In this document: piece after piece, positions 21,596 through 22,940 of the stretch
Layout of the letters: every line of letters begins with the position of its first letter
How positions within the stretch are numbered: the first letter of the stretch is position 1
From: a virus
DNA: 22,940 bases
Reading direction: 5' to 3' (one strand)
Virus record (IMG/VR): IMGVR_UViG_3300030118_000003
Span: 1 to 22,940 of that record
Made by a program: the position numbers and the translations under genes
Notes under the pieces: generated by a model
The model's input: only the letters and a program-made list of their open reading frames with translations
What the model was told of the DNA's origin: nothing
Databases searched by the model: none

Positions 21596-21829
21596 ATGAA
21601 ATATATTTTAATATTATATATGTGCAGTTTAACTACAGGTCAATGTCCAAACAATTCAATATCAGGTTATCAATTTGCATCGCATTATGATTGTATAAAT
21701 GCTGGTTATGCTATTGCTCAAAAAACTTACAGAAATTTATCTGAGTTAGAAGAGTGGGATATAGACCATATAAATAAAAACAAAATAGTAGTTAAGTTTG
21801 AATGTAAGGAGATAAAAGTAAATGCCTAG
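21596..21829 (+). CDS. Small Cys-containing exported protein candidate
   Basis: A 77-residue protein with a short hydrophobic N-terminus (MKYILILYMCSLTTGQC) and four cysteines (10, 17, 33, 70). It has the motifs GYQFASHYDC, GYAIAQKTY and a terminal VVKFECKE. The N-terminus could be a short signal or anchor, but I see no clear cleavage or lipobox site. From memory, small proteins of this type recur in marine phages, with no known role. It comes before the lysis genes and may be part of them. It overlaps the next gene by eight bases. No clear Shine-Dalgarno precedes it. Confidence 0.68.
   Translation: MKYILILYMCSLTTGQCPNNSISGYQFASHYDCINAGYAIAQKTYRNLSELEEWDIDHINKNKIVVKFECKEIKVNA
21805..21811 (+). 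promoter_or_regulatory. Ribosome binding site of the holin candidate
   Basis: TAAGGAG lies ten bases before the ATG at 21822, inside the end of the previous gene. Confidence 0.65.
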
Positions 21830-22067
21830 AAAAAAAACTTTAACAGCAAAAGAATTAACAAATCAAATGACAGGTATGAGATTATCAAAACATGAAGCTA
21901 TTTGTGCAGAAAGAATGAAAACATTATTTAAAGCAATAGATGAAATGAGAATAGAAATTAAACAACTAAGAACAGATGTAAGTAAAGGAAAAGGTGCTAT
22001 TAACTTATTAATTATTCTTGGGGGTATTGCAGGAGTCTTGCTTGGCTTCTTCAAATGGGATGGCTAG
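21822..22067 (+). CDS. Tail-anchored membrane protein, holin candidate
   Basis: An 81-residue protein with a basic N-terminus (MPRKKTLTAKEL), a charged amphipathic or coiled-coil helix (ERMKTLFKAIDEMRIEIKQL, residues 30-49) and one membrane segment near the C-terminus (INLLIILGGIAGVLLGFF, residues 60-77). This topology is seen in XhlA-like and other single-segment phage holins. It lies two genes before the endolysin. Holin function is inferred from topology and place; a spanin-like or other membrane role cannot be excluded. It overlaps the next gene by eight bases. Confidence 0.65.
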   Translation: MPRKKTLTAKELTNQMTGMRLSKHEAICAERMKTLFKAIDEMRIEIKQLRTDVSKGKGAINLLIILGGIAGVLLGFFKWDG

Positions 22068-22365
22068 AAGAAAAAAAGCAGTTGCTGGTTTAACTTCTGA
22101 ACTTGCAGCACAGCTTGACTTTGCTAAAGACCCAAATATATTAGTATTTACACCACTTGGAGGACTAGGACCTATAGATATTGTTACTTTAAATATGACT
22201 ACAGGTGAGTATACTGCGTATGATGTTAAGACAAAAAATTTTAGAAAAAAAGATTACATCCCTAGTGATGGGTATAAGAGAAAAACTAAAGGTTCTCTTA
22301 TTAACAGACAAACAACTAATGAACAAAAGAAACTAAAGGTAAAAATTATTTATGCAACTATCTAA
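22060..22365 (+). CDS. Small PD-(D/E)XK nuclease-like protein
   Basis: A 101-residue protein starting MARRKKAVAGLTSEL. I chose the ATG at 22060, overlapping the holin stop; a start at 22018 lies inside the holin membrane segment. The sequence has a pattern of the PD-(D/E)XK fold: E14 in the first helix, a beta hairpin with FTPLGGLGPIDIVTLN (D40), then GEYTAYDVKTKN (D55-x-K57), and Q89 in a basic helix. The C-terminal part is rich in Lys and Arg, as in DNA-binding small nucleases. If active it might nick or cut DNA (Holliday junction resolvase or VRR-NUC style). It is unusual inside a lysis cassette. It overlaps the endolysin gene by 14 bases. Confidence 0.66.
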   Translation: MARRKKAVAGLTSELAAQLDFAKDPNILVFTPLGGLGPIDIVTLNMTTGEYTAYDVKTKNFRKKDYIPSDGYKRKTKGSLINRQTTNEQKKLKVKIIYATI

Positions 22366-22837
22366 ACATTTTAAACTAGAAGAATTTACTAAATCAATGA
22401 CAGCAACTCGTAAGGGTATAGATAATACACCTGGAGCTGGTGATATTAAAAACTTAGAGAATGTTTGTTATGAAATATTAGAACCAGTACGAGCTAAGTT
22501 TGACAAACCTATAACTGTTACATCAGGGTATAGATCAGAAGAACTATGCGAAGCTATCGGTAGCAAAAAAACATCACAACACGCAAAAGGTCAGGCAGTA
22601 GATTTTGAGATTGCTGGTGTACCTAACATTCAAACAGCTTATTGGATTCAAGCTAATTGCGACTTTGATCAATTAATATTAGAGTTTTATAATCCAGATG
22701 ATCCTGCTGGTGGTTGGGTTCACGTGTCGTACAATGAAAAAGGATCTAATAGAAAACAGGTTTTGACTTACGATGGTAAAAAATTTGAAAATGGTTTACC
22801 AGATATGAAGTGGAAAGATGGAAAGGTATTAGGATAA
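22352..22837 (+). CDS. Endolysin, M15 family peptidase
   Basis: A 161-residue zinc peptidase of the peptidase M15 type (D-Ala-D-Ala carboxypeptidase or L-Ala-D-Glu endopeptidase class), which cuts peptide links of the cell wall. The zinc site is seen as SQHAKGQAVDF (H77, D84) and WVHVSY (H124), with E111 in LILEFY as probable catalytic base. The upstream SGYRSEEL motif (58-65) is also typical. N-terminal residues (LSKHFKLEEF) match this subfamily. No signal peptide is present, so it would need the holin candidate to reach the wall. It starts inside the previous gene and its stop overlaps the next start (TAATG). Confidence 0.93.
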   Translation: MQLSKHFKLEEFTKSMTATRKGIDNTPGAGDIKNLENVCYEILEPVRAKFDKPITVTSGYRSEELCEAIGSKKTSQHAKGQAVDFEIAGVPNIQTAYWIQANCDFDQLILEFYNPDDPAGGWVHVSYNEKGSNRKQVLTYDGKKFENGLPDMKWKDGKVLG

Positions 22838-22940
22838 TGTGGTTGAATTTATTATCGTTGGGTGTAAAGACAGGAGCTAGAATATATCAGAACAAGCAAC
22901 GAACTAAACAGTTGATGTCAGATGCTCAGATGCTTCATGC
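22837..22940 (+). CDS. Hypothetical protein, 3' end outside window
   Basis: Only the first 34 residues are in the window, starting MWLNLLSLGVKTGARIYQNK. The start overlaps the endolysin stop (TAATG). It has a short hydrophobic N-terminus followed by Lys, Arg and Gln, and its end here (LMSDAQMLHA) suggests a helix. From memory, similar small proteins follow endolysins in marine podophages. Function is unknown. Confidence 0.6.
   Translation, partial: MWLNLLSLGVKTGARIYQNKQRTKQLMSDAQMLH

Follow-up and report, generated by a model that had tools for sequence, protein, structure and literature searches.

A small predicted PD-(D/E)XK nuclease gene at the lysis end of HTVC010P-type pelagiphage genomes

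Few ocean viruses are as common as the HTVC010P-type pelagiphages, whose hosts are SAR11 bacteria. Small PD-(D/E)XK nucleases are common in phages, and the structure matches obtained here from the PDB and BFVD include many of them. T7 endonuclease I (gp3, Phage_endo_I), the product of an early gene, is a PD-(D/E)XK phage resolvase, while T4 endonuclease VII (gp49) has a His-Me finger fold unrelated to PD-(D/E)XK. I-Ssp6803I is an intron-borne, sequence-specific endonuclease of the superfamily, and HNH proteins act as terminase packaging partners in HK97-type phages. T4 gp49, which does late in infection the job proposed below for the pelagiphage protein, is described as debranching DNA for packaging and as binding the portal (PMC3485210). 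Cyanophage P60 gp36 (phrog_5018) resembles the pelagiphage protein in its size, its E..D..DxK layout and its place between tail fibre and endolysin, both of which it overlaps. The two proteins are, however, about 21% identical, the P60 protein has a different C-terminal part and lacks the conserved glutamine Q89, and P60 also carries a T7-type endonuclease I, an enzyme not found in the pelagiphages.

The window, a virus record of 22,940 bases, is a fragment of an HTVC010P-type pelagiphage; its capsid protein and the one encoded by Pelagibacter phage HTVC010P share 96.5% identity. The genes at its lysis end are the following.

21596..21829, + strand: 77-aa small protein whose N-terminus is signal-like; its gene opens the lysis-end block (phrog_19893, 2.6e-32)
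21822..22067, + strand: 81-aa protein with a coiled coil and a C-terminal membrane segment, XhlA-like (weak matches)
22060..22365, + strand: small PD-(D/E)XK nuclease gene, homolog of HTVC010P gp36 (101-aa ORF translation, homologs, model)
22352..22837, + strand: M15 peptidase endolysin (PF08291, 2.5e-19; phrog_894, 1.2e-48)
22838..22940, + strand: start of a holin-like membrane protein gene, homolog of HTVC010P gp38, cut by the record end (assigned from its sequence)

The nuclease candidate shares 89% identity with HTVC010P gp36, a 'hypothetical protein', and overlaps its neighbours on both sides as the initial annotation had claimed, sharing its first 8 bases with the upstream ORF and its last 14 with the endolysin. 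A TTG at 22018 offers an alternative longer start; most homologs start elsewhere, beginning with MARRKK or similar. Relatives in IMG/VR, homologs in 19 Pelagibacter phage records (tblastn, 60-89% identity) and a median dN/dS of 0.17 between the window and 56 equal-length homologs, a set that was not deduplicated, make 22060-22365 a genuine gene, beyond a chance pattern. Among IMG/VR stretches matching the search pattern, 141 of 148 code for relatives, and 80 were kept. More distant relatives were reached in scans with Greip and HTVC106P-type queries, and a scan of bacterial genomes returned two contigs, both in metagenome-assembled genomes. Twenty Mycobacterium matches in the tblastn search were set aside as short and non-significant; the Mycobacterium portal-protein matches (E 0.6 over 27 residues) were put down to chance. 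The gene is under purifying selection; across the 56 homologs the codons of E14, D40, K57 and Q89 vary synonymously, and that of D55 is constant. Homologs across the HTVC010P group are annotated as hypothetical or, in one genome, mis-called a peptidase: Greip gp55 (QLF88292.1; L082 33364-33663) is entered as 'Peptidase_M15_3 domain-containing protein', a label apparently transferred from the adjoining endolysin gp54.

The 101-residue translation carries a putative active site at the residues first proposed for it, E14, D40, D55-x-K57 and Q89, whose codons are listed here with their conservation.

22099..22101, + strand: E14 codon, helix A acid (invariant in 131/131 rows)
22177..22179, + strand: D40 codon, motif II Asp (invariant in 131/131 rows and in the 8-row cyanophage alignment)
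22222..22230, + strand: D55-x-K57 codons, (D/E)xK motif (invariant in 131/131 rows; in the 8-row alignment D55 invariant, K57 in 7/8)
22324..22326, + strand: Q89 codon, helix B (invariant in 131/131 rows; absent from the cyanophage homologs)

The 131 rows represent 130 distinct proteins, the window protein being counted twice, and remain from 199 loci after removal of short and X-containing sequences. Conservation of E14, D40, D55 and K57, which the earlier reading had made a test of its proposal, thus extends with Q89 to every row, down to about 30% identity. Only 13 columns are conserved at 99% or more, and all five proposed active-site residues are among them; E88 is not invariant in this alignment. 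A smaller alignment of 36 sequences, drawn from 38 representatives by leaving out L199 (which has an X) and L073, spans 29-87% identity to the window protein and is invariant at G10, E14, V29, P38, D40, D55, K57, G78, I81, R83, T86, Q89 and L92. When four cyanophage or spring-water homologs are included in the 8-row alignment, G10, E14, V29, D40 and D55 are still invariant, and Q89 is missing in these four. One of them, from MW202557 (L203 450-800), has DVT in place of DVK, with Thr instead of the catalytic Lys, and judged by this substitution is possibly a catalytically dead version. The helix A acid, the motif II Asp and the (D/E)-x-K motif of the superfamily are therefore present in order and conserved.

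The predicted structure agrees with this assignment. AlphaFold2 modelled the window protein from the 36-row alignment with a pLDDT of 87.5 and a pTM of 0.71, and the elements of the model (H2-22, E27-30, E41-45, E51-58, H87-91, E95-99) follow one another as helix-strand-strand-strand-helix-strand, the alpha-beta3-alpha-beta core of PD-(D/E)XK proteins. In a Foldseek search of the PDB, chains of I-Ssp6803I rank highest, at E values of 0.038 to 0.068 and probabilities of 0.98 to 1.00. Hits to the SPARDA nuclease, to HinP1I, to EcoRV and to Hjc follow, interspersed with low-probability rows for acetyltransferase and LolA structures that are unrelated, and no PDB match of this model reaches E<=0.001. 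VIA-align places the model against 9qcc_Y (Z 8.0, 90 residues, 3.9 A), I-Ssp6803I (2ost_A; Z 7.8, 84 residues, 2.3 A) and Hjc (1gef_B; Z 7.5, 75 residues, 2.0 A), with FAN1 and VRR_NUC proteins at Z about 6 to 7 (4qbn_A, a VRR_NUC: Z 6.5, 72 residues, 3.2 A). A second AlphaFold2 model, of a 26%-identical HTVC106P-type relative (L113), reached a pLDDT of 83.1 on a 20-row alignment that has the window protein among its rows. Foldseek matches it to 2ost at E 1.8e-4 and then to Hjc entries, and VIA-align to 2ost_A at Z 8.4 (85 residues, 2.2 A) and 1gef_B at Z 7.5 (76 residues, 2.0 A). Z values of 7 to 8 are middling taken alone; the fold call is persuasive because almost every leading match comes from a single superfamily and because conservation falls on the catalytic residues. 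The restriction-endonuclease-like core is thus present in both models, and together with the conserved residues it bears out the original description of a PD-(D/E)XK nuclease-like product. We regard the fold and active site as close to certain and hold with very high confidence that the window protein is a PD-(D/E)XK nuclease.

Profile searches place the protein more loosely. The window protein matches no Pfam family, a sequence-profile search of the PDB gives no match at E<=10, and its PHROGs match, phrog_30258 at E 0.2, was ignored as not usable. PDDEXK_5 (PF11645) is matched at E<=1 by 14 of the 36 alignment members (best 1.6e-5), and the scores shown for relatives, at most 23.9 bits, stay below the curated cut-off of 26.1. 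Matches to YjhX_toxin (5/36) and to NOV_C (12/36), a PD-(D/E)XK-like family, were rejected, the scores shown for them also being under the cut-off; a toxin-antitoxin reading was dropped because a partner is lacking. The protein shares its core fold and small single-domain build with the archaeal Hjc resolvase (1GEF, PF01870), a likeness known from the predicted fold, whereas none of six records, the window's included, has a PF01870 match at E<=5. The P60 gp36 protein matches PF01870 at E 0.029, under the cut-off, and none of seven records matches VRR_NUC (PF08774) at E<=1.

In profile comparisons with hhalign, the HTVC106P group connects on one side to the HTVC010P group (E 2.6e-10) and on the other to the P60 group of gp36 and its relatives (E 4.5e-9). 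The direct comparison of the HTVC010P and P60 groups is weak (13% probability), and a better figure for it comes from an alignment that already includes the HTVC106P group; as far as the sequences go, the HTVC010P group is tied to the P60 group only through the HTVC106P group. The PHROGs matches run the same way, with phrog_5018 matched by P60 gp36 (4e-22) and by the HTVC106P group (1e-8 to 7e-7) and with no direct match of the window protein or HTVC010P. Among the BFVD matches is Q8W6V7 from P60, 99 aa long and entered as 'Holliday junction resolvase'; judged by its length, it is probably P60 gp36.

The gene is embedded among lysis functions. The 81-aa protein upstream had been called a holin candidate: its overlap with the nuclease gene stands, and its identity as a holin is uncertain. 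It has a weak match to phrog_1193 'hemolysin' (E 0.0032), the corresponding HTVC010P protein hits XhlA at E 0.0048, under the curated cut-off, and a larger holin-like gene begins at about 22838. The cassette thus has two membrane proteins, the XhlA-like one at 21822-22067 and the holin-like one after the endolysin. The 81-aa protein precedes the nuclease in 77 of the 94 loci with enough upstream DNA. In all 92 HTVC010P-type loci with at least 600 bases downstream, a lysin or holin-like gene lies within 650 bases. The M15 endolysin is the next gene in 64 of these and lies about 200 bases on in another 7; elsewhere the next gene encodes a 70-aa coiled-coil protein (19/92), a T4-type lysozyme (1) or a membrane protein (1). 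In the four loci with the 70-aa protein that were read (L040, L031, L075, L093), no M15 or T4-type lysin was seen nearby. The HTVC106P-type set comprises 82 loci, from 80 virus contigs and 2 bacterial-genome contigs, and a lysin is present in 60 of the 61 with at least 2.8 kb downstream (36 M15, 24 lysozyme). The nuclease keeps to the end of the late region where lysis and packaging genes lie, even as the type of lysin switches.

Carriage of the gene is close to general among related phages. Nineteen of 21 records whose capsid protein is at least 69% identical also carry it; the others are Skadi-11, a 9.9-kb fragment, and HTVC028P, whose genome is complete and whose capsid protein is 69% identical, and in which the gene was not found. 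The profile search behind the HTVC028P result contained its own targets, so its positive matches are circular and only the miss is informative. HTVC028P has an integrase, and in it a different M15 peptidase gene comes immediately after the XhlA-like one. With neither the nuclease gene nor any of four resolvase families found in HTVC028P, the gene is dispensable in at least one relative.

These four families, Phage_endo_I, RusA, Endonuclease_7 (that of T4 gp49) and VRR_NUC, were found by profile in none of the window, HTVC010P, Greip, HTVC106P and HTVC028P. T7 endonuclease I was likewise unmatched as PF05367 in the window and the four pelagiphage records searched. A family scan covering 50 of 64 HTVC010P proteins (for PHROGs, 25 of 56 families among the matches listed) identifies an annealing protein of the ERF family and a small terminase of Sf6 type; in HTVC028P the scan covered 33 of 52 proteins. 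Since the four resolvase profiles find nothing in these records, the window-type gene is the best candidate branch-cutting enzyme for the three complete genomes in which it occurs. Among the cyanophages, P60, S-CBP1 and S-SRP01 carry a T7-type endonuclease I beside the late nuclease homolog, and the Phage_endo_I matches of P60 and Syn5 map to other parts of those genomes. A plain stand-in for endonuclease I was accordingly rejected, as these three cyanophages have both genes and HTVC028P has neither; in the cyanophages the nuclease is more likely to have a separate late task linked to packaging than to act as a replacement. P60 gp17 (L209 3134-3493) and Syn5 gp28 (L210 12796-13128) are a second small PD-(D/E)XK-like gene, in the early region, flanked by DNA polymerase and exonuclease. 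A 295-aa hypothetical protein adjoining the ERF gene, HTVC010P gp52 (L081 29347-30234), has no Pfam match and by eye looks like a RecB/Cas4-type exonuclease.

The gene, its family, the invariant active-site residues, the model fold and the conserved late position are established by these data; the role that we infer from them, held with about even confidence, is that of a late structure-selective PD-(D/E)XK endonuclease debranching phage DNA for packaging. The protein would be an active metal-dependent endonuclease of the small Hjc/I-Ssp6803I-like type, translated at the end of the late operon and coupled to its lysis neighbours through the short overlaps. Metal ions would be coordinated by E14, D40 and D55, K57 would activate the water, and the protein, probably a dimer, would contact DNA through the basic stretch between residues 59 and 95. 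The substrate would most likely be branched DNA, in the form of junctions and forks that exonuclease/annealing-protein recombination leaves behind, and removal of the branches would let linear concatemers enter the terminase. The need for such a step follows from recombination-type replication, which yields branched concatemers, as T4 gp49 illustrates (PMC3485210). Where the gene lies and what else the genomes encode speak more for debranching or packaging than for bulk degradation of host DNA. Several points count against debranching: HTVC028P lacks the gene, the cyanophages also have endonuclease I, and in HTVC010P-type phages TerL is far from the nuclease, at the other end of the late operon. 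The best structural match, moreover, is to a homing endonuclease, an enzyme whose target is a linear sequence and not a junction.

It is unlikely that the protein is instead a packaging partner of the terminase that nicks or trims concatemers at the motor without resolving junctions. The more distant loci argue for such a partner, as the homologs of S-CBP1 and S-SRP01 lie directly upstream of TerL (12 and 16 bases apart), that of MW202557 is separated from the portal by one gene, and in cyanophages the endonuclease I alongside argues for a second, late job; the distant TerL of the window's own group and the ability of HTVC028P to manage without the gene argue the other way. Late degradation of host or competitor DNA, for nucleotide recycling or exclusion, is rather improbable. 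These phages are described as depending on host polymerases, and nuclease genes of Skadi, which ones being unspecified, are proposed there for early-stage recycling (PMC10504331). A position at the lysis end is late for recycling, though, a 101-aa single-domain enzyme has no obvious means of sparing phage DNA, and a separate, larger early-region nuclease is already present (Greip gp37, HTVC028P gp07).

We consider it very unlikely that the gene is a free-standing I-Ssp6803I-like homing endonuclease settled among the lysis genes, a reading prompted by the rank of I-Ssp6803I as nearest or second-nearest solved structure in every listing and by the variable gene after the nuclease. Unlike the intron-borne enzyme, it is a fixed late gene, carried by nearly all the capsid-bearing relatives, one of the two misses being a fragment; its position is constant, its overlaps are short, it is under purifying selection, and neither an intron nor disruption of a target site was seen. 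Least probable of all, and scarcely credible, is a catalytically dead protein serving as a DNA- or terminase-binding factor, for although the distant MW202557 homolog lacks the Lys, the catalytic set is invariant in all 131 rows despite synonymous codon drift.

A literature search, with the main HTVC010P-type genome paper outside its scope, found no published description of such a gene in pelagiphages or of a nuclease in a lysis cassette, and both the nuclease identity and its fixed place in the cassette seem to have gone unremarked so far. Most genes of HTVC010P-type pelagiphages are unnamed, and a likely biochemical activity can now be assigned to one that almost every sequenced isolate of this type carries. 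It is the best candidate for the missing branch-cutting enzyme in phages that have an ERF recombination system and no recognised resolvase. Different groups of marine podoviruses have a small nuclease at the end of the genome region devoted to lysis and packaging. Speculatively, and with low confidence, these lineages might share a lysis-coupled 'last-step' nuclease that clears branches from unpackaged DNA at a time set with lysis, the enzyme staying in place while the lysin is exchanged. As the enzyme is small and has a single domain, the question is directly testable.
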